DNA from: Chitinophagaceae bacterium | GTDB taxonomy: Bacteria; Bacteroidota; Bacteroidia; Chitinophagales; Chitinophagaceae | DNA: 9,415 nucleotides | Assembly (NCBI GenBank): GCA_003132765.1 | Contig: PKYU01000216.1 | Coordinates: 1,127 to 10,541 of the forward strand | Reading direction: 5' to 3' | Notes under the pieces: model-generated | Told to the model about the DNA's origin: nothing | Seen by the model: the letters and a program-made list of their open reading frames with translations, nothing else | The model's database searches: none | Made by a program: the position numbers and the translations under genes | In this document: positions 1 to 9,172 of the stretch, one piece after another | Layout of the letters: every line of letters starts with the position of its first letter | How positions within the stretch are numbered: the stretch's first letter is position 1

Positions 1-2344
1 TTGCTGCTTTTATTGCCTGGAAGCTAATAGTTAAAAGTGCAATTAGCAAAGCTGCCAAACCAGCCATTCCAAAAACCCACCAGTGCACGTTTATCCTGTA
101 TGCAAAATCATCCAGCCAACTATTCACCGCCCACCATGATATAGGTATAGCAATAATTATTGCCAGGAACACCAGTTTTAAAAAGTCGATGCTGATCAAT
201 TGCACAATGCCGGAAATGCTTGCTCCCAACACCTTTCTTATGCCAATTTCTTTTCGTTTAACTTGCGCCGTATAGGTTGTTAATCCAAAAAGACCGAGAC
301 AGGAAATAAAAACAGCGATGCCTGCAAAAACATTGAAGAGAACACCAGAACGTTGTTCAGATCTGTAGAGGTCATCAAAACTTTTATCCAAAAAATTATA
401 ACTGAAAGGAACATTTCCCGCATATTTTTTATATTGGCTTGCCACCGCGGCTATAACCTGCTTCGCATTGGTGGCTGTAGTCCTTACATAAAGTATGTTG
501 GGTTTGTTCCAAAAATTATAAAAGAGCAGCGGCCCGATCTTTGTTTTAAGAGATTGAAAATTGAAATCTTTAACCACACCGAGTATCGTTCCTTTCCGGT
601 CATGGAAGGTAATCTGCTGGCCTACATAAGGTGTTTTCAGGTCCATTTGTTTTACGGCTGTTTCATTTAAGACATAATAACTGCTATCGGCAGGAGAACC
701 GTTAAAATTAGTTCCCTCCACAAATTTAATTCGCATCAGGGGAATGAAATTTTTATCCGCTTTGAGTTGCGTAATGAGCATATTACTATTTGCCGGTTTG
801 CCTTTCCAGTCAATATCGCCAGTTGAACTATACAAATTTGAAATGTTGTCGGCATCAGACGCTGCTACATTTGAAATTGAAGTTTGTTGTCTTAATTCTG
901 CTTCCACTGCATCAAGATGATTTACCACTTCATCGGGCAGCAGCACGGAAAAAACATAACTCCTATCATACCCTAAATTTTTATTTCTTATATAATCCAT
1001 CTGGCGGCTGATAATGATGGTACACACCAAAAGAATTACCGAAATGGAAAATTGAAAAACCACCAGCCCTTTCCTAAGGGAAGTAATTCCGATTCCGCTT
1101 TTAAATTTTCCTTTGAGAGATTCAATTGGTTTAAAGGAAGATAACAACAGCGCCGGGTAAATACTGGAAGCTATTAATGTTCCCAATATTGCCAAAACGA
1201 TGGCCTTCCATACGGCTACATTTGTGAAATTAAATGTTAGTGTTTTCCCTGAAACTTCATTGTACAAAGGCATTAAGATATAAATAAGTATAAGAGCAAG
1301 GGCCGCTGCAAAGACAAAGAGTACCATTGTTTCCAGCGTGAATTGGAAAAACAATTGCATTTTACTGGCACCGATAATTTTCCGTACCCCCACTTCTTTA
1401 GCCCTTAACAGGGAACGGGCAGTAGAAAGGTTCACATAATTGATACTGGCAATAGACAACAACAATATTACTATCAGCATAAAAATTTGTACCATCCTTA
1501 ACGCTGCATTATTTCCATCAGCACCTACGAGGTGTATGTCTGCAAGATTCTCCAGATTAAAAGCCGCATCAGATTCTCCGTTTCTCGCTTTTTTATATAA
1601 AGCAGAAAAAGTATCGCCTGTTTTTACCGGATCAGTTCCGGGCTGCAGTTTCACAAAGGTGTTGAATGCATAATTACCTACATCTTCATCGATCGTTTTC
1701 CAATCGCCATTGCCGCCCCATGAAGTAAAAAGCCGGGCATAAAATCCCATCGAAAAAATAGCATCAAACTTTAGGGAAGAGTTATCAGGAAAATTCTGCA
1801 ATACACCGGTAACGATAAAATTGGTTTTGTAGAAAACCAATGTTTTTCCAATAGCATCCGTATCACCAAACAGTTTTTTGGCGGTAGATTCTGTTATTAC
1901 AACAGAAAAAATATTGGGAAAGGCATTGTCATTGTTTCCTTCAATAAACTTAAAATTGAACATTGAAAAGAATCCGCTGTCAACACTGGCAACTGTGTTA
2001 CCATCAAAAATGTTTTCACCGCTTTTATCCGAAAGCAACTGGCCGTCATCCTGGTGTATCCTTACTATGGATTGAACTTCCGGGATGTTGCTTGCATACA
2101 CAGCCAAAGGTCCCGGCACTCCGGGCCAAGTTTGCGCTTCACCATTAGATACAAAGTGGGCGCTTAGCTGGTAGATATTTTTGTAATCCTTATTAAACTT
2201 ATCATAGCTCAATTCGTGCTGTACCCACATTAACAACATGATGCCGGTAGCAAGCCCTACAGCCAGTCCGCTGATGTTTAAGGCACTGTAAAATTTATGG
2301 TTCCATAAGCTCCTCCATGCTGTTTTGAAATAGTTTTTGAACAT
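1..2344 (-). CDS. MacB/FtsX-type ABC transporter permease (3' end beyond window)
   Basis: Inner-membrane permease of a MacB-like ABC exporter, working with the ATPase encoded just upstream. The frame is open from the ATG at 2344 to the left edge, giving 781 complete codons. I checked the frame at several points and found no break. The N-terminus MFKNYFKTAWRSLWNHKFYS is typical of Bacteroidota permeases. TM1 is about residues 20-41, followed by a MacB periplasmic core-like region to about 280. The first FtsX block, about 283-366, carries RAKEVGVRKIIGAS near 315. A further TM at about 421-443 starts the second half, followed by a second periplasmic region. The second FtsX block from about 665 carries KRKEIGIRKVLGAS. 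This duplicated FtsX layout of nearly 800 residues is usual for the family, so only a few C-terminal residues should be missing. The substrate cannot be told. It lies 122 bp after the ATPase stop and is probably in the same operon. Confidence 0.94.
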   Translation of the reverse strand, partial: MFKNYFKTAWRSLWNHKFYSALNISGLAVGLATGIMLLMWVQHELSYDKFNKDYKNIYQLSAHFVSNGEAQTWPGVPGPLAVYASNIPEVQSIVRIHQDDGQLLSDKSGENIFDGNTVASVDSGFFSMFNFKFIEGNNDNAFPNIFSVVITESTAKKLFGDTDAIGKTLVFYKTNFIVTGVLQNFPDNSSLKFDAIFSMGFYARLFTSWGGNGDWKTIDEDVGNYAFNTFVKLQPGTDPVKTGDTFSALYKKARNGESDAAFNLENLADIHLVGADGNNAALRMVQIFMLIVILLLSIASINYVNLSTARSLLRAKEVGVRKIIGASKMQLFFQFTLETMVLFVFAAALALILIYILMPLYNEVSGKTLTFNFTNVAVWKAIVLAILGTLIASSIYPALLLSSFKPIESLKGKFKSGIGITSLRKGLVVFQFSISVILLVCTIIISRQMDYIRNKNLGYDRSYVFSVLLPDEVVNHLDAVEAELRQQTSISNVAASDADNISNLYSSTGDIDWKGKPANSNMLITQLKADKNFIPLMRIKFVEGTNFNGSPADSSYYVLNETAVKQMDLKTPYVGQQITFHDRKGTILGVVKDFNFQSLKTKIGPLLFYNFWNKPNILYVRTTATNAKQVIAAVASQYKKYAGNVPFSYNFLDKSFDDLYRSEQRSGVLFNVFAGIAVFISCLGLFGLTTYTAQVKRKEIGIRKVLGASISGIVQLISIDFLKLVFLAIIIAIPISWWAVNSWLDDFAYRINVHWWVFGMAGLAALLIALLTISFQAIKAA

Positions 2345-2466: not shown

Positions 2467-3144
2467 CTAAATCAGAATATTTTCCGTAACCGTTTGTCCA
2501 TCCAGCATCCGAATAATACGATGACTATAGCGGGCATCGTGTTCGCTATGCGTAACCATTATGATGGTGGTGCCATGCTCATTCAAATCAGTAAGCAATT
2601 GCATTACTTCATTACCATTTGAAGAATCGAGGTTACCTGTTGGTTCATCTGCGAGAATCAGTTTGGGATTATTCACCACTGCACGGGCTACGGCTACACG
2701 TTGCTGCTGACCACCGCTCAGTTGCTGTGGATAGTGATTGCGACGATGCATAATCTGCCTTTTATCCAGCACCTTTTCAACACGCTGTTTTCTCTCCTCA
2801 CCCTTCACTCCGAGATAGATTAGGGGCAATTCCACATTTTCAAAGACCGTCAGTTCATCAATTAGGTTGAAACTCTGGAATACGAATCCGATATTCCTTT
2901 TGCGGAGGTCTGCTCTCTTGCGTTCATTGAACCCTGCTACTTCTGTTCCATTGAACAGGAAACTTCCGCTGTCAGGATCATCAAGCAAGCCTACAATATT
3001 CAGCAAAGTAGATTTGCCGCAACCCGAAGGACCCATAACGGCAACAAATTCACCATCCTTCACTTCAAATGACAGTTTATTTAATGCAACGGTTTCCACT
3101 TCTTCCGTGCGGTAGATCTTTTCGAGATTAGAAATTTGTATCAT
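2467..3144 (-). CDS. MacB/LolD-family ABC transporter ATP-binding protein
   Basis: Cytoplasmic ATPase (225 aa, normal family length) that should power the FtsX-type permease encoded next. All nucleotide-binding motifs are visible: Walker A GPSGCGKST at 38-46, Q-loop Gln90, signature LSGGQ at 142-146, Walker B LILADEP at 162-168 with catalytic Glu167, D-loop NLDS at 171-174, and the switch His199 in MVTHS. The segment NHYPQQLSGGQQQRVAVARA and the early EVETVALNKLSFEV are characteristic of the LolD/MacB (FtsE-like) branch rather than of importers. The ATG at 3144 follows an A-rich leader without a clear Shine-Dalgarno sequence, usual in Bacteroidota. It lies downstream of the membrane fusion protein gene, separated by about 330 bp that hold a possible small gene, and most likely shares its transcript. 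Confidence 0.96.
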   Translation of the reverse strand: MIQISNLEKIYRTEEVETVALNKLSFEVKDGEFVAVMGPSGCGKSTLLNIVGLLDDPDSGSFLFNGTEVAGFNERKRADLRKRNIGFVFQSFNLIDELTVFENVELPLIYLGVKGEERKQRVEKVLDKRQIMHRRNHYPQQLSGGQQQRVAVARAVVNNPKLILADEPTGNLDSSNGNEVMQLLTDLNEHGTTIIMVTHSEHDARYSHRIIRMLDGQTVTENILI

Positions 3145-3181: not shown

Positions 3182-3379
3182 TTAAATGTTTATGAAAAAT
3201 ATTTCAGGTTTGTAATATATACTTTCTTTATTGTTCAATATTAGCGAATGATGTATTAGTTTTGGATTAATATTATACTCACAGTCAACTTTACATGATT
3301 TTTCCTCACTTTTGATTGGTAGCGAAACAATGCAACATAAAGCAAGTATTAAAAGTCGATGAGTAATTAAATTTTTCAT
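3182..3379 (-). CDS. Possible small secreted protein (65 aa), unrecognised
   Basis: An open frame of 65 codons between the membrane fusion protein and ATPase genes, on the same strand. The N-terminus has a signal-peptide pattern: MKNLITHR, then a hydrophobic stretch LLILALCCIVSLPI, then a polar start KSEEKSC. A Sec signal with cleavage near residue 25, or a Cys-rich exported peptide (Cys15, 16, 29, 33), is conceivable. The remainder is rich in Asn, Ile and Lys and shows no domain I know. The ATG at 3379 has an AT-rich leader. MacAB-type operons in this phylum do not normally carry a gene here, and it could equally be the decayed N-terminus of a larger exported protein or a chance frame in AT-rich DNA. 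The signal-like start and co-orientation are the only support. Confidence 0.4.
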   Translation of the reverse strand: MKNLITHRLLILALCCIVSLPIKSEEKSCKVDCEYNINPKLIHHSLILNNKESIYYKPEIFFINI

Positions 3380-3474: not shown

Positions 3475-4728
3475 TCATTTTTGTAACACCAACTCCTGCA
3501 TATTTCCATAATTTTCATAACTCGACGTAACCACTTTATCTCCCGGTTTTAATCCCTGCAATACTTCGTAATAATCGGGATTTTGATTTCCTAACTGGAT
3601 GTCAACTTTATAAGCATTCTTCCCATTGTCGGCCACTTTAAATATCCAGTTGCCACCTGTTTGCTGGTAGAAGCCTCCTTTGGGCAATAAGATAGCTTGT
3701 CTTTCATCACTCAATGCCAGCCTTATTTGTAAGGTTTGGCCACGACGGATGCCTTTAGGAGCCTTACCGGTAAATTCCATATCTACCTGGAACCTTCCAT
3801 TGGTTACCTGGGTATATACCTTTTTTATAACCAGTTCATAAGCGGTGTCTGCAAAATCAAAAGTGCCCTTGAGGCCGGTGAAAATTCGCGAAATATAGTG
3901 CTCATCAATATCTACCCTTACTTTATAACCACCCAAAACATCAATTTGTCCAAGTTGGTCACCCTTATTTTTTGTCTGTCCCACTTCTGCATCAAGTGAG
4001 GTAAGTTGTCCGTCGATAGGCGCCCGAACTATTAAATCACCCACTTTCTGTCGCATCACATTCAATGCATTTTGAGATCCTTCAAAAGATTGCCTTGCCT
4101 GTATCAACTGTTGCTCAGTAGATACAGAATCCTGTTGGAGGATTTTATCGTTAAGTTGTTTCTTTTGCAAATAATAATTGAAATTATTTAATGCCTGCTG
4201 GTATTCCTGGGAACCAATCACCTTTTCTTCATATAAATGCTTATCCAGTTTATACACGCGTTCAGCTTCCTTCAACTGACTTTCCACATCGGTCATTTGA
4301 TTGAGTTTGCTCACCGTATTTTGCTGTGCAGCATTTTTTGAAATTTGCATTTGAGTAAGCAGGTTATAAACGTTGGTCTGCTGTGTAACAAGGCCGAGTT
4401 GCAAATCGGTATTAGATAATCTTATGATAGGTTGTCCCTTTTTCATCATAGTACCATCATCCACATATTTTTCTTCAACACGTCCTCCCTCTACTGCATC
4501 CAGGTAAATGGTAGTTAGCGGTAATACAATACCATTTACCGGAATAATCTCCTGGAAGGAACCTTTGGTAATTTCACTAATCGTGATCCTGTCAGTATTT
4601 ACATTCAATTTACTGTTTCCTGATGTGTAATAATAGCTTGCAGCAATAAGCATTACAATAGCGACAATTCCGGAAATTGTAAGTATCCTTTTTTTAGTCC
4701 ATGTCTTTTTTTCAATTATTCTATCCAT
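3475..4728 (-). CDS. HlyD/MacA-like periplasmic adaptor (membrane fusion protein)
   Basis: Periplasmic adaptor that should link the MacB-like permease to an outer-membrane TolC-type channel; no channel gene is in the window. It has 417 aa, a normal length. A short cytoplasmic N-terminus is followed by one TM helix or uncleaved signal anchor at about 14-34 (ILTISGIVAIVMLIAASYYY). The first half of the lipoyl domain is at about 72-106 (VEEKYVDDGTMMKKGQPIIR). A long Gln-rich coiled-coil hairpin spans about 108-230. The second lipoyl half follows at about 231-262 (DLIVRAPIDGQLTSLDAEVG). Beta-barrel and membrane-proximal domains run to the C-terminus, with IRRGQTLQIRLAL and LQGLKPGDKVVTSSYENYG as typical motifs. 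It is the first gene of the minus-strand exporter operon, preceded by a putative sigma54 promoter and tandem activator sites, which points to control by the adjacent NtrC-family regulator. Confidence 0.95.
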   Translation of the reverse strand: MDRIIEKKTWTKKRILTISGIVAIVMLIAASYYYTSGNSKLNVNTDRITISEITKGSFQEIIPVNGIVLPLTTIYLDAVEGGRVEEKYVDDGTMMKKGQPIIRLSNTDLQLGLVTQQTNVYNLLTQMQISKNAAQQNTVSKLNQMTDVESQLKEAERVYKLDKHLYEEKVIGSQEYQQALNNFNYYLQKKQLNDKILQQDSVSTEQQLIQARQSFEGSQNALNVMRQKVGDLIVRAPIDGQLTSLDAEVGQTKNKGDQLGQIDVLGGYKVRVDIDEHYISRIFTGLKGTFDFADTAYELVIKKVYTQVTNGRFQVDMEFTGKAPKGIRRGQTLQIRLALSDERQAILLPKGGFYQQTGGNWIFKVADNGKNAYKVDIQLGNQNPDYYEVLQGLKPGDKVVTSSYENYGNMQELVLQK

Positions 4729-4792: not shown

Positions 4793-4808
4793 TGTAAAGT
4801 TTATGCCA
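4793..4808 (-). promoter_or_regulatory. Putative sigma54 promoter of the exporter operon
   Basis: On the minus strand the sequence is TGGCATAAACTTTACA. Against the sigma54 consensus TGGCAYR-N4-TTGCW it matches the whole -24 element, has the correct 10 bases between GG and the -12 pair, and differs in the -12 element only at G (TTACA for TTGCA). The -12 base would be at 4794 and transcription would start near 4782, leaving a leader of about 53 bases before the ATG at 4728. The adjacent gene encodes a GAFTGA-containing sigma54 activator, and two related palindromes lie upstream at activator distance. Confidence 0.55.
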
Positions 4809-4857
4809 CTTTCATAACTATTTGTATTTCATTAAATTAAGTGAAAAGAGCCGGATA

Positions 4858-4904
4858 AAAGTGTACGGTTTTGGTACAGTTGCCGTTCGCTATCAGTACA
4901 ATGG
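4858..4904 (-). promoter_or_regulatory. Tandem upstream activator sites of the exporter promoter
   Basis: Two 25-bp sites with centres 22 bp apart. The proximal site (4858-4882) reads ACTGTA-N9-TACA on the minus strand, centred at 4870, 62 bp upstream of the first T of the -24 element. The distal site (4880-4904) keeps the left arm ATTGTA and the internal CG, but its right arm is degenerate. Both align to the sites at 5320-5366. The layout is like that of NtrC-family enhancers; TGT-N11-ACA is close to the known NifA site TGT-N10-ACA. The likely binder is the Fis-type HTH of the regulator at 5473. Confidence 0.6.
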
Positions 4905-5017
4905 ATTTAGGGGGTAAAGAAAATGAAAACTTTATAATGCACACTTCTGTATTTTTAAACGGAAACAATATAAGGTTTTCATCGGGGCAATATCGAAGGA
5001 AGGCTTTGCAACTTTGT

Positions 5018-5203
5018 TTATAAGAACCTTCTTCCATAAAAATTTCTTTTGTTGCCATGAATATTCCATAAATTGACACAGCTAAATTTCTTTTGGCCGG
5101 TTCTTTTGGTCTCATGGTCTAATGTTTCTTTTACATCTTTTGCCAGGTTTTTTAATTCCACTTTGGTAAGTGGTTCTAAAAAATACGTTGTTTTGGTTTT
5201 CAT
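5018..5203 (-). CDS. Small protein (61 aa) with LWNI...RRF C-terminus
   Basis: A 61-residue cytoplasmic-looking protein with no signal peptide or membrane segment. It begins MKTKTTYFLEPLTKVELKNL. A charged, probably helical middle (KDVKETLDHETKRTGQ) is followed by a C-terminal block FSCVNLWNIHGNKRNFYGRR and then FL. From memory, small Bacteroidota proteins often end in a similar F[ST]xxDLWNIQRxxRxxxxRRF pattern; I cannot search to confirm and know no function. The frame extends upstream to an ATG at 5323, but that start would lie inside the upstream palindrome. The ATG at 5203 follows an A-rich leader (AAAAAAAACAAACATTT), normal for this phylum. It is preceded by its own promoter-like element and tandem activator sites matching those of the exporter operon, which suggests co-regulation. 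It may be a regulatory or accessory small protein, or a peptide precursor exported by the adjacent transporter. Confidence 0.6.
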   Translation of the reverse strand: MKTKTTYFLEPLTKVELKNLAKDVKETLDHETKRTGQKKFSCVNLWNIHGNKRNFYGRRFL

Positions 5204-5256
5204 AAATGTTTGTTTTTTTTGATTAGTAAATAATTTTTTTCTTTGCCAACAGATAT

Positions 5257-5271
5257 TACAATGGTGTGCCA
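5257..5271 (-). promoter_or_regulatory. Sigma54-like promoter of the 61-aa gene (spacing one base short)
   Basis: The minus strand reads TGGCACACCATTGTA. The -24 element TGGCAC is perfect and TTGTA resembles the -12 element TTGCA. However, there are 9 rather than 10 bases between the GG and the -12 pair, which is unfavourable because sigma54 spacing is strict. Transcription would start near 5246, about 43 bases before the ATG at 5203. Its place 61 bp from a palindrome matching the exporter module is the main support. Confidence 0.42.
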
Positions 5272-5319
5272 AAACATAGGAACCTGGTTTACAATGAAAT
5301 GAAAAAAATGAATTGTTAA

Positions 5320-5366
5320 TCACTGTACGCTTATGATACAGTGAGTATCCGTTTTTAATACAGTTT
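5320..5366 (-). promoter_or_regulatory. Tandem upstream activator sites before the 61-aa gene
   Basis: The proximal site is a perfect 8-bp inverted repeat, TCACTGTA-N9-TACAGTGA (5320-5344, centre 5332), 61 bp upstream of the -24 element at 5271. The distal site (5342-5366, centre 5354) has the left arm ACTGTA and internal ACG on the minus strand, with a degenerate right arm. Its centre is 22 bp from the proximal one, so both face the same side of the helix. On the 25 positions the proximal site matches the exporter site at 4858-4882 at 17, including 16 of the 19 core positions. The sites also lie upstream of the divergent regulator gene (5473) and might affect its own expression. Confidence 0.62.
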
Positions 5367-5472: not shown

Positions 5473-6834
5473 ATGAACTTAAAAAATGCTAACATACTGG
5501 TGGTAGACGATGATACGGATGTATTAACTGCTGTGCGCCTGCTTTTAAAGATGGAAGCGAAAGAAGTGGTTACGGAGAAAAATCCGGAAAATATTCGTTC
5601 CATTTTATCCAAACGATCCTTCGATATTATTCTATTGGATATGAATTTTAAAAGTTCTATCAATACAGGTAATGAAGGAATATATTGGTTGAAAAAAATA
5701 AAAGAATCAGCAACGAGTGCCTCTGTGATAATGATTACTGCTTATGGTGATATAGACCTCGCCGTTAGGTCATTGAAAGAAGGCGCTTCAGATTTTATCA
5801 TAAAACCCTGGCACAATGAAAAACTAATTTCAACAATAAAAGAGTTGTTAAAGGGAAAGGAAGGAAATAAAGAGGAAGGAAAGATTTCTACAGAGGGTAA
5901 AAAATTCAATGACCTGATTGGTGAATCGGAAGTGGTAAAGGATATATTTTTTAAGGTTGAAAAAATTGCTCCAACCGATGCTAATATTTTGATACTTGGG
6001 GAAAATGGTACCGGTAAAGATCTTATAGCAAAGGCCATTCATAAGCTATCACTTCGTGCTAAAAAGCCTTATGTAAAAGTGGATGTAGGTGCGCTAACAG
6101 AATCTCTTTTTGAAAGTGAATTGTTCGGCTATAAAAAGGGTGCTTTTACAGGAGCCAATGAAGAAAGGGCCGGTAGATTTGAAACCGCCAATGGAGGTAC
6201 TTTATTTCTTGATGAAATCGGAAATATTTCTCTGCATCAACAAGCGAAATTATTAAGTGTTTTACAAAACCGGCAAATCAATAAATTAGGTAGTAATGAA
6301 ATGATCAATATTGATATCAGGTTGATTTGCGCTACTAATGTATCATTAGCAGAATTGGCGAATGAAACCCGATTCAGGAAAGACCTTATTTACAGGATTA
6401 ATACAGTGGAGGTAATGATGCCTCCTTTGCGAAAGAGAAACGGAGATATCCTCAAACTCGCTAACCATTTTCTGAAAATATATTCGGAAAAATATATGAA
6501 GAGCCAGTCTGTATTGGATGGGAAAGCAATCGAAAAACTGAATAATTATGTTTTCCCCGGGAATGTTCGTGAATTACAATATGTGATAGAGCGGGCAGTG
6601 ATTATGGCTGACAATCGGGAACTTTCTGCAGCTGATATTATTTTTTCTCCGATTGAAAAAAATGAAGCTGTTCCCGCAACAAATGAAAATGATCAATTGA
6701 ATTTAGAAGTGCTTGAAAAAAATACTATTTTAAAAGTAATTGATAAGCATAACGGTAATATTAGCAAAGCAGCAAAAGAACTGGGGCTCACGAGAACGTC
6801 TTTATACAGGAGGTTGAATAAGTATGATATTTGA
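5473..6834 (+). CDS. NtrC-family sigma54-dependent response regulator
   Basis: Transcription activator of a two-component system (453 aa, usual length). Receiver domain, residues about 6-125: acidic pair Asp12/Asp13, phospho-acceptor Asp56 in DIILLDMNF, Thr89 and Lys111 (IIKPW). AAA+ sigma54-interaction domain, about 147-375: Walker A GENGTGKD at 176-183, GAFTGA loop at 223-228 that contacts sigma54, Walker B GGTLFLDE at 241-248, arginine-finger region RFRKDLIYR at 300-308, and PGNVREL at 362-368. That motif is preceded by Phe where most family members have Trp. A Fis-type HTH follows at about 410-450 (NGNISKAAKELGLTRTSLYR). Two in-frame TAA codons (5464-5469) lie just before the ATG, fixing the start. 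The kinase gene follows after 140 bp on the same strand. Two sets of tandem palindromes in the divergent upstream region are the likely targets. Confidence 0.97.
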   Translation: MNLKNANILVVDDDTDVLTAVRLLLKMEAKEVVTEKNPENIRSILSKRSFDIILLDMNFKSSINTGNEGIYWLKKIKESATSASVIMITAYGDIDLAVRSLKEGASDFIIKPWHNEKLISTIKELLKGKEGNKEEGKISTEGKKFNDLIGESEVVKDIFFKVEKIAPTDANILILGENGTGKDLIAKAIHKLSLRAKKPYVKVDVGALTESLFESELFGYKKGAFTGANEERAGRFETANGGTLFLDEIGNISLHQQAKLLSVLQNRQINKLGSNEMINIDIRLICATNVSLAELANETRFRKDLIYRINTVEVMMPPLRKRNGDILKLANHFLKIYSEKYMKSQSVLDGKAIEKLNNYVFPGNVRELQYVIERAVIMADNRELSAADIIFSPIEKNEAVPATNENDQLNLEVLEKNTILKVIDKHNGNISKAAKELGLTRTSLYRRLNKYDI

Positions 6835-6974: not shown

Positions 6975-8330
6975 GTGCAGCAAACGACTTACTTCAAGCA
7001 AACGGGTTGGAGAATTTTTATTAGAATATTTTTATTGTTGGTAACGCTTACCACTATGGCATTTGTTGTAATGCATGCGTTGTTTATTTATTTGGTTTTG
7101 ATCATTCCGCTGATCGCTTACCAACTCGTGGAATTATATCGCTTTCAACTCAAGGCCCAGGAAGAACTGCAACAATTTATTGAGTCTGTTCATTACCGAG
7201 ATTTTTCCCGTCATTTTAATGTTAAGCAGGCCCCTGCTGATTTGCAGCCTTTACGGGAAGGATTTAATGAAATAAATGATGCCTTTAAAACCATCAGTAA
7301 GGAAAAGGAAATTCAATATCAATACCTGCAAAAGATCCTTGAACTGGTGAACACTGGCATATTATCTTATGAGTTCGAAACAGGTGAAGTTGTCTGGATG
7401 AATGAATCACTCAAGCAAATGCTGGAACTTCCTTATTTGAAATCTATCCAGTCTTTACGTAAAAGATATCCTGAATTGTGCAGTGAAATTATGGAACTAA
7501 AACCGGGAGAAGGAAAAATATCCAATGTGCAACAGGAAAAAGGAAAATTTAAGGTGCTGGTGTCGGCAACCGCATTTCAAACGGAAGGAAAGAAATTTAA
7601 ACTCATTGCATTTCAAAATATAAGTGAAGCGGTAGATGAAACAGAATCACAGGCGTGGAAGAAATTACTAAGTGTAATGACTCACGAGATAATGAATTCT
7701 GTAGCGCCCATTTCATCACTTGCCAGCACACTTAAGAAAACATTGGAAAAATCAAAGGCCCAATTAAACAATGAAAAAGGTGAAGTGGATGATCTTGACT
7801 TAGGCATTGAAACAATAAAAAAAAGAAGTGAAAGCTTATTAAAATTTGCAGAAACGTACCGCAATCTCAATAAGATCACGAAGCCTGATGTAAAAAGTGT
7901 TTACGTAAGGGACCTGTTTGAGAATATTTATAGCCTGATGCAGCCTAGCCTCGAGCAAAAAAATATTGAGATGGAAATTATTTTGAAAGACACGCAACAT
8001 ATTGTGGAAGCTGATGTAACCCTTATAGAGCAGGTTTTAATAAATATCGTTGTGAATGCCATTGAGGCGGTTAAAGAAAAGGAAGATGGAAGAATTGTTC
8101 TTTCAGCAGGAGAGAACCGCCAGAGGAAAGTTTTCATAAAAGTATCGGACAATGGGGCCGGTATGGACGAAGAAATATTGGAAAAGATCTTTATACCATT
8201 TTTCAGCACCAAGAAAAACGGTAGTGGTATAGGCCTGAGTTTATGTAAGCAAATCATGATGCTGCACAAAGGAAATATACAGGTGCAATCAGAACCCGGA
8301 AAAGGTACTGCCTTTACATTGACATTTTGA
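6975..8330 (+). CDS. NtrY-like membrane sensor histidine kinase (GTG start)
   Basis: Sensor kinase of 451 aa, the likely partner of the regulator encoded upstream. Two TM helices at about 13-32 and 34-51 form a tight hairpin with almost no periplasmic loop. A linker or HAMP-like segment follows at about 52-110, then a PAS-like domain at about 115-222 (NTGILSYEFETGEVVWMNES). The dimerisation/phosphotransfer domain has H-box LLSVMTHEIMNSVAPI with phospho-acceptor His237. The ATPase domain has N-box Asn361 (NIVVNAIEAV), G1 SDNGAGMD at 391-398, F-box IPFFSTK and G2 GSGIGLSL at 416-423. All catalytic residues are present. The start is GTG: an in-frame TAA lies at 6948-6950, no ATG occurs between it and 6975, and an AGGA sits just upstream. 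With no extracellular sensor domain, the signal is probably sensed in the membrane or by the PAS domain. Confidence 0.95.
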   Translation: MQQTTYFKQTGWRIFIRIFLLLVTLTTMAFVVMHALFIYLVLIIPLIAYQLVELYRFQLKAQEELQQFIESVHYRDFSRHFNVKQAPADLQPLREGFNEINDAFKTISKEKEIQYQYLQKILELVNTGILSYEFETGEVVWMNESLKQMLELPYLKSIQSLRKRYPELCSEIMELKPGEGKISNVQQEKGKFKVLVSATAFQTEGKKFKLIAFQNISEAVDETESQAWKKLLSVMTHEIMNSVAPISSLASTLKKTLEKSKAQLNNEKGEVDDLDLGIETIKKRSESLLKFAETYRNLNKITKPDVKSVYVRDLFENIYSLMQPSLEQKNIEMEIILKDTQHIVEADVTLIEQVLINIVVNAIEAVKEKEDGRIVLSAGENRQRKVFIKVSDNGAGMDEEILEKIFIPFFSTKKNGSGIGLSLCKQIMMLHKGNIQVQSEPGKGTAFTLTF

Positions 8331-8452: not shown

Positions 8453-9172
8453 ATGAAAAAGTTATTAGCAATATTATTAGCTTTCATTAGCCTGAATTCA
8501 TTCTCTCAAAAATGGGAAACTATTAAAGGTAATGGAGAAACAAAAAAAGAAACCAGGGAGGTAAGTAGCTTTACCTCGATCAATGCCCAGGGCCCGATGG
8601 AAATCAAAATTGATTATGGAAATTCAGGCACCATATCTGTAGAGGCAGATGAAAACCTTCTTCCTTATATTGAAACAACCGTAGAAGATGGAAGATTATC
8701 AATTAATCCAAAGAAAAATGTGAACCTGAAATCGAGGTCAGGAATTGTTGTATATGTTTCCATGACTCAGATAAAATCCTTGAAATTAAGCGGTAGCGGA
8801 AATATTAGTGGTTCAGGGGCTTTTACTAATGATGCCACAACTGATTTTTCCGTTTCAGGCTCCGGGAACCTTTCCCTCGATTTTGATACATTTAAAGAGC
8901 TTGATCTTTCTATATCAGGAAGCGGAAATATTAAATTGAAAGGCGCTTCCAGTATGATATCTGCTAAAATAAGTGGTAGTGGAAATATCGACTGTAGTAA
9001 TACCAGTAGCAATGACGTTGTTGCAACGGTGAGCGGAAGCGGCAATATTAAAGTATATGCCAATAACAGTATTGATGCTCAAATAAGCGGCAGTGGCAAT
9101 GTCTTTTTTAAAGGAAATGCTCAAAAAATAAACAGGAAAATGTCAGGTAGTGGAAAGGTTGTTAAAATGTAA
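8453..9172 (+). CDS. Secreted DUF2807 ('head GIN domain') beta-repeat protein
   Basis: Exported protein of 239 aa. A signal peptide is clear (MKKLLAILLAFISLNSFS, cleavage near 18-19). The first half of the mature part (about 36-110) contains SSFTSINAQGPMEIKIDYG and ISVEADENLLPYIET, the typical opening of the DUF2807 family, annotated elsewhere as a putative autotransporter adhesin head domain. The second half has a regular SGSGN motif at about 113, 135, 155, 174, 194 and 212, with a final SGSGK at 231. The 18-22-residue steps are what a right-handed beta-helix would show, with each motif at a turn. It lacks a lipobox Cys and a C-terminal sorting domain, so it is probably periplasmic or surface-associated. 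The biochemical role of the family is not established. It follows the kinase gene by 122 bp and might share its transcript. Confidence 0.9.
   Translation: MKKLLAILLAFISLNSFSQKWETIKGNGETKKETREVSSFTSINAQGPMEIKIDYGNSGTISVEADENLLPYIETTVEDGRLSINPKKNVNLKSRSGIVVYVSMTQIKSLKLSGSGNISGSGAFTNDATTDFSVSGSGNLSLDFDTFKELDLSISGSGNIKLKGASSMISAKISGSGNIDCSNTSSNDVVATVSGSGNIKVYANNSIDAQISGSGNVFFKGNAQKINRKMSGSGKVVKM

Follow-up and report, generated by a model that had tools for sequence, protein, structure and literature searches.

The window, by which we mean the whole stretch of DNA analysed here at its full length of 9,415 nucleotides, lies on contig C188 of a genome of 3.96 Mb (623 contigs, 72% complete). It contains an exporter operon and a short gene on the minus strand, and genes for a response regulator, a histidine kinase and a DUF2807 protein on the plus strand. 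Two modules of paired sites lie in the divergent region. The features are as follows.

2..2344, minus strand: MacB_PCD/FtsX permease, cut by the window edge (Pfam PF12704 and PF02687)
2467..3144, minus strand: ABC ATPase of the LolD/MacB type (Pfam PF00005)
3182..3379, minus strand: 65-aa open reading frame (ORF) whose N-terminus is hydrophobic, between the adaptor and ATPase genes (ORF reading)
3475..4728, minus strand: HlyD-type periplasmic adaptor, gene 1 of the exporter operon (Pfam PF13437 and TIGR01730, both above cut-off)
4793..4808, minus strand: exporter-operon promoter predicted to be of sigma54 type, TGGCATAAACTTTACA (relatives have TGGCA at an equal offset)
4822..4831, minus strand: third conserved box of module 1, reading TGAAATACAA (position deduced from aligned spacers)
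4858..4882, minus strand: proximal site of module 1, TGTA-N9-TACA (exact core match)
4880..4904, minus strand: distal site of module 1, on the exporter side (exact core match)
5018..5203, minus strand: 61-aa gene of an unnamed small-protein family, in the divergent region (profile search and alignment)
5256..5271, minus strand: predicted sigma54-type promoter of the 61-aa gene, TGGCACACCATTGTAA (TGGCA; -12 half one base early)
5285..5294, minus strand: third conserved box of module 2, reading TTGTAAACCA (position deduced from aligned spacers)
5320..5344, minus strand: proximal site of module 2, with perfect 8-bp arms (exact core match)
5342..5366, minus strand: distal site of module 2, on the small-gene side (exact core match)
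5473..6834, plus strand: NtrC-type response regulator with receiver, AAA+ domain with GAFTGA and Fis-type helix-turn-helix (HTH) (Pfam, motif positions, co-occurrence)
6975..8330, plus strand: histidine kinase (Pfam PF02518; hydropathy)
8453..9172, plus strand: DUF2807 (Toastrack-type) protein, after the kinase (Pfam PF10988)

The closest relatives of the window regulator are mostly from Chitinophagaceae and Mucilaginibacter. The ABC ATPase is 75-92% identical across the related exporter loci that hold one, and the 65-aa ORF has no match in Pfam or NCBIfam. For the DUF2807 protein, tblastn (E 0.001) found no similar protein in 52 related loci, and its membership in the system is uncertain.

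Two modules share sequence and geometry

The initial annotation had described four 25-bp minus-strand sites that share a core and form two tandem pairs upstream of sigma54 elements. The arrangement holds in every detail. The 19-base core is exact at all four sites (low ends 4862, 4884, 5324 and 5346) and occurs nowhere else in the window, the spacing is 22 bp in both pairs, and the -24 T, at 4808 and 5271, lies 62 and 61 bp from the proximal centres. The palindrome TGTA-N9-TACA is found at the two proximal sites only, with perfect 8-bp arms at 5320-5344. Both sites of each module match with 0 mismatches. A chance origin, which had been considered hard to sustain, is disfavoured by 300 dinucleotide shuffles of the window, which gave 0 exact core sites. 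The NifA upstream activator site, to which the sites had been compared, has the form TGT-N10-ACA, whereas the palindromic window sites and the consensus read TGT-N11-ACA.

The predicted sigma54 promoter elements stood only in part: TGGCA is present as the -24 element, but the -12 half is weak in both modules. It has one mismatch to the consensus used in module 1 (TGGCATAAACTTTACA), and in module 2 (TGGCACACCATTGTAA) TTG comes one base early.

A scan for the core across the genome (72% complete), as proposed in the initial annotation, returned exact matches at the four window sites only. Allowing up to 2 mismatches gave 110 matches genome-wide against 112 in the reversed control, so loose single matches are meaningless. 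Four places elsewhere in the genome with 1 mismatch have no partner site 22 bp away and no TGGCA at the right distance.

The module is conserved at related exporter loci

One scan with the regulator protein yielded 52 loci. We kept 44 in which the regulator is at least 60% identical and hlyD is divergent; the other eight (L037, L060, L076, L079, L081, L084, L086 and L087) have no hlyD in the piece or a regulator below 60%. The prediction that the motif would be conserved before orthologous exporters was borne out, with the module present in 42 of the 44 loci against a mean of 0.0 in 100 dinucleotide shuffles. Its geometry is constant: the sites of a pair are spaced about 22 bp, and the distance to TGGCA is 92-94 bases for the distal and 70-72 for the proximal site.

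Sites with at most 1 mismatch in the 44 divergent regions number 48 on the exporter strand and 0 on the opposite strand, and a second site (at most 3 mismatches) follows at +22 in 34 cases. Since TGGCA was a search criterion in the module alignment and consensus runs, its 100% presence in those alignments arises by construction; the unbiased count comes from site-TGGCA pairs at any distance in the 44 regions. Such pairs number 80, and 48 of them fall at +92 to +94 or +70 to +72 (6, 30 and 2 at +92, +93 and +94; 3, 4 and 3 at +70 to +72). The 10 pairs at +70 to +72 are those in which the site is itself proximal. The box thus has both marks of a sigma54 -24 element, the sequence TGGCAC/T and a fixed distance from the putative enhancer.

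The distal-site consensus resembles TGTATCRAAANCGNACA; its TGT, C, CG and AC hardly vary. One of the two failing regions, L073, has no part of the module; the other, L036, fails the full module test and retains one good site with TGGCAC at the right distance. Among the 42 that pass, L077 and L080 each have one poor site (6 mismatches), with a spacing of 21 in L080. Kinship among the loci inflates the raw counts and does not explain them, because the 47 full-length regulators are 58-100% identical in pairs (median 70%) and form 22 clusters at 85% identity, one of which has 17 members.

The alignments of the relatives also revealed a third box, WTGAWWWYCA, which is conserved and in part palindromic and is located 13-23 bases before the -24 T. 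It is absent from the initial annotation, and we identified no known binder for it.

A blind search recovers the module at exporter genes

We searched 396 genomes of the order with a DNA pattern of two half-specified sites 22 apart followed by TGGCA. The pattern occurs at 34 places in 28 of these genomes, and the reversed pattern at 0. We read each of the 33 places outside the window; counting the window, 25 of the modules lie at the exporter operon, 8 at other FtsX/ABC-exporter genes and 1 elsewhere. Three of those assigned to the operon are incomplete or rearranged: L123 ends before hlyD and adjoins the regulator, L118 has hlyD and no regulator alongside, and L119 has another large ORF between module and hlyD. 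Of the nine others, four precede an ABC ATPase followed by an outer-membrane-efflux-like gene (Pfam-checked in L137 only), and another four precede an FtsX permease, in L130 after a 113-aa ORF. The ninth, L132 (G363:C1 near 2557073), precedes a baeRF family 3 (archaeo-eukaryotic release-factor-like) gene.

A slightly stricter pattern, applied to 296 genomes sampled across the phylum, matched in 5 of them (0 for the reversed pattern). These belong to two families, f1, the window's own, and f23; from sequence shared with named loci we take f1 to be Chitinophagaceae and f23 the family of Mucilaginibacter. The regulon had been predicted to be local. This agrees with the window genome as far as its 72% completeness goes, but it does not extend to the relatives: the regulon is not always local, because in several of them the module also precedes further ABC-exporter genes. 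The named loci and genomes overlap (for example L038/G347, L047/G171 and L074/G156), so the two sets are not independent.

The module co-occurs with the regulator

Co-occurrence was assessed in 80 genomes, comprising all 27 module-positive genomes other than the window's own and 53 of the 105 genomes of the family listed as module-negative. A regulator orthologue is present in all 27 module-positive genomes, at 61-74% identity. Among the 53 module-negative genomes, 13 have an orthologue, 4 only a paralogue of about 50% identity and 36 neither at E <=1e-120. Because the negatives were picked for being module-negative, only the fractions 27/27 and 13/53 are informative.

On reading, every one of the 13 negative genomes with an orthologue carries a looser module. 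A scan allowing 9 mismatches over the pair found it in 11 of the 13; when these 13 pieces were shuffled 12 times, the mean was 0.17 and the maximum 2. In 8 of the 11 loci, one site of the pair matches poorly (4-9 mismatches). The scan also picked up one reverse-strand match, in L219, that looks like chance. By eye, G070 has its looser module at the exporter, away from the regulator, and that of G215 has CGGCA as its box. In G265, the regulator and kinase lie on contig C6 without a module and the exporter with its module lies on C2; adjacency alone therefore proves nothing.

We rejected the idea that the motif is a property of the wider regulator family, as 0 of 5 loci with a paralogue of about 50% identity carry it. 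These five loci have their own abc genes alongside and, in four cases, their own hlyD. The HTH end of the regulator, GNITKAAKELGLTRTALYRRLSKYDI, is nearly invariant in the orthologues and differs both in the paralogues and in the only other strong sigma54-activator match in the window genome (72% complete). The suggestion that the motif belongs specifically to the adjacent regulator is thus supported on both sides, by the presence of the orthologue in 27/27 module genomes and the absence of the motif from the five paralogue loci. Conservation in 42 of 44 loci, recovery by a blind search, the 27/27 orthologues and the motif-free paralogues together argue that the module is very probably the enhancer of this NtrC-type regulator and likely, as predicted from sequence, its binding place.

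Predicted sigma54 competence of the regulator and its putative promoters

The window regulator contains a receiver, a PF00158 AAA+ domain and a Fis-type HTH (HTH_8) in this order, all above the Pfam cut-offs, which is the domain order of NtrC-family response regulators. GAFTGA and Walker A motifs are present in the protein. Moreover, the window genome holds a fragment of a sigma54 gene near a contig start.

TTGC five bases after TGGCAC/T, the textbook -12 element, occurs in 0 of 48 modules. The variants found include a near match, TT[TAC]C (8 modules), and a TTG displaced by one base, either early (15) or late (13). For sigma54 elements, PMC12316311 allows 5-7 bases of spacing. Across 50 regulator rows, the activator loop reads GAFTGA in 4 (the window and three near-identical loci), GAFTDA in 36 and GAYTDA in 10. 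A Desulfovibrio study counts GAFTDA and GAYTDA among the loops compatible with activation (PMC4641369); in a Dickeya study, sigma54 was not pulled down with a GAFTDA protein, and whether the variant is the reason was left undecided (PMC10714721). The altered loops of 46 of the 50 regulators stand alongside a degenerate -12 element, and the two changes may have co-evolved.

A kinase with almost no loop between its hydrophobic stretches

The kinase has two N-terminal hydrophobic stretches with almost no loop between them. Among 49 kinase rows including the window's, a few of them truncated, the first ~60 residues contain either one merged hydrophobic stretch or two neighbours at most ~9 residues apart. 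This membrane reading is taken from hydropathy. The near-absence of a loop suggests that the signal is sensed within the membrane or by way of the exporter.

The 61-aa gene belongs to a wider small-protein family

A single-sequence search with the 61-aa protein gave only one protein, 97% identical and possibly the window's own record, so a profile was needed to find the family. The profile retrieved 297 relatives at E <=0.01, with the consensus FSAAELWNIQRQRR..QRRF (also given as FSAAELWNIQRQRR..RRF); W, I and RR are invariant in 32 aligned members. The window protein is divergent, with 22-44% identity to its aligned relatives. The family has no credible Pfam or NCBIfam match and is found in 52 of 147 genomes of the window's family. 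A predicted structure shows two helices, but its confidence (mean pLDDT 68.6, pTM 0.27) was too weak for interpretation or a structure search, and we set it aside.

Small genes separate double modules in the window, in the near-identical loci L038, L039 and L085, in L074 and in L122; in G070, which has a single module, hlyD is separated from it by a small gene. The expectation that the module would also precede related small genes therefore holds in the few loci having such genes. The converse, that every such small gene is part of the regulon, was rejected: among the best 30 small-family loci, 3 have the regulon module (L151, which is the window, L168 and L157) and 27 are not beside this system.

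In 17 of these best 30 loci, a PadR gene and a PspC gene lie directly downstream of the small gene:

L153-L156, L158, L160-L162, L164-L167, L169-L171, L173 and L174: small gene before PadR-PspC

Pfam confirmation of these neighbourhoods was obtained for one locus, L155. The upstream stretches scanned in the PadR-PspC-linked loci contain no regulon module; the ORF pattern missed some of these loci. A further locus, L159 (G398:C32:264060-264684), has three tandem small-family genes, with a fourth elsewhere on the contig.

Discussion

We consider it likely that an enhancer and a sigma54-type promoter make up each module. The adjacent regulator would act there to induce the HlyD-ABC-FtsX operon and the 61-aa gene, probably in conditions of envelope stress. 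The kinase would sense the membrane or the exporter itself and then phosphorylate the regulator. The phosphorylated regulator would form a ring on the two helically phased sites, loop over ~60 bp and remodel sigma54 RNA polymerase. The exporter would then remove a substance that is damaging or made by the cell itself, and the same response would be assisted by the 61-aa protein; the third box may bend the DNA or, alternatively, bind another factor. From the genomic comparison we infer binding by the regulator, sigma54 dependence and induction of both the exporter and the small protein, while the stress signal and the exported substance are guesses.

The degenerate promoters leave room for a different assignment, in which the tandem sites bind another factor, such as a repressor, and the TGGCA box is not a sigma54 promoter. 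The textbook -12 TTGC missing from all 48 modules and the D in the GAFTGA loop of most regulators fit this assignment. We nevertheless regard it as unlikely: in 42 of 44 loci, TGGCA keeps a fixed, enhancer-type distance; this AAA+ activator and its HTH, but not the paralogues, are accompanied by the motif; and a sigma54 gene fragment is present in the genome. It is less likely again that the module is an enhancer read by some other protein that travels with the exporter rather than by the adjacent response regulator. The separate contigs of module and regulator in G265 would permit such a reader; yet G265 itself has the orthologue, as do the other 26 module genomes, and the one other strong activator match in the window genome has a different HTH.

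We give least credence to the view that module 2 arose by duplication of module 1 and is decaying, with a 61-aa ORF that is no real gene. Both sites of both window modules have 0 mismatches, and small genes of the same family lie between the modules at other double-module loci. The divergence of the window protein (22-44% identity) and the single hit of its own search, 97% identical and possibly its own record, could be read as marks of a spurious ORF; against them stand the 297 profile relatives (E <=0.01), of which the 32 aligned all keep W, I and RR.

Enhancers of the NtrC family have dyad sites in tandem and in helical phase, placed 60-120 bp before a TGGCA box. The modules resemble those of NtrC and NifA in their tandem phased dyads, in the TGGCA box and in the adjoining gene for an activator with receiver, AAA+ domain and Fis-type HTH. 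They differ in that the dyad is TGT-N11-ACA with an internal CG, and that the spacing is fixed, at 22 bp between sites and 92-94 bp to TGGCA. Furthermore, the -12 half is degenerate, and most regulators carry GAFTDA or GAYTDA. To our knowledge, little is known about the sites recognised by Bacteroidota sigma54 activators.

A link between sigma54 and FtsX-type permeases has already been published: in Bacteroidia, predicted sigma54 promoters are enriched at COG0577 FtsX-type permeases, which the study terms the first evidence of such a link (PMC12316311). Our loci agree with that report in having predicted sigma54 promoters at the same permease type in the same class. In the excerpts of PMC12316311, however, no activator or enhancer site is given for these permeases and no small gene is named, and its main text contains neither "UAS" nor "Chitinophag". 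Among the literature matches listed, from a search that covered few subscription journals, this activator, its site and the small family are not described.

The exporter shares its three-part layout with DarBCD (NF038007, NF038008 and NF038010), and models of this set score highest in NCBIfam for both ATPase and adaptor. We rejected its identity as a darobactin exporter, since all three window proteins score below the curated equivalog cut-offs (302 of 375, 113.5 of 700 and 177 of 450 bits).

In Bce-type modules, a histidine kinase without a periplasmic sensor domain stands beside the FtsX-family ABC exporter that it controls. The kinase described here, read by hydropathy as two helices without an intervening sensor domain, resembles this type; in contrast, the regulator is of the NtrC/sigma54 type by Pfam rather than the OmpR type, and the transporter is MacAB-like with an adaptor. 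Neighbourhoods of PadR, PspC and Toastrack genes are described as envelope-stress systems in PMC11237479, a paper in which the words "small protein" do not occur. The likeness to these systems lies in the small family preceding PadR and PspC in 17 of its best 30 loci and in the DUF2807 Toastrack gene of the window, whereas the eight window proteins scanned have no Pfam match to PspA, PspC or PadR. By analogy, we tentatively suggest that the locus could be a sigma54-wired counterpart of the Bce systems, doubtful as this is. In it, a kinase lacking a sensor domain would read membrane damage or the activity of the exporter, a dedicated activator would drive tandem-site promoters ahead of the exporter parts, and a 61-aa family induced along with them would also serve a PadR-PspC response. 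If so, one small protein would link two separately controlled envelope defences of Bacteroidota.

Comparison alone has supplied the sequence, the spacing and the regulator for a combined test in culturable relatives; the module pattern is specific enough to list regulon members in raw genomes. Moreover, it ties to an exporter an uncharacterised small-protein family that elsewhere stands before PadR-PspC genes.

Small hydrophobic ORFs are a further feature of the exporter loci (14 of 41). Upstream of hlyD, 5 were found against 5 in the opposite-strand control, while the gap between hlyD and the ATPase has them in 9 of 41 loci against 1 in that control; thus, only the gap ORFs stand out. These ORFs (window 3182-3379; L041, L043, L044, L047, L050, L077, L080, L082 and L083) have a hydrophobic N-terminus, and their C-terminal end is often hydrophobic too. 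They lie inside the exporter operon and are possible exported peptides.
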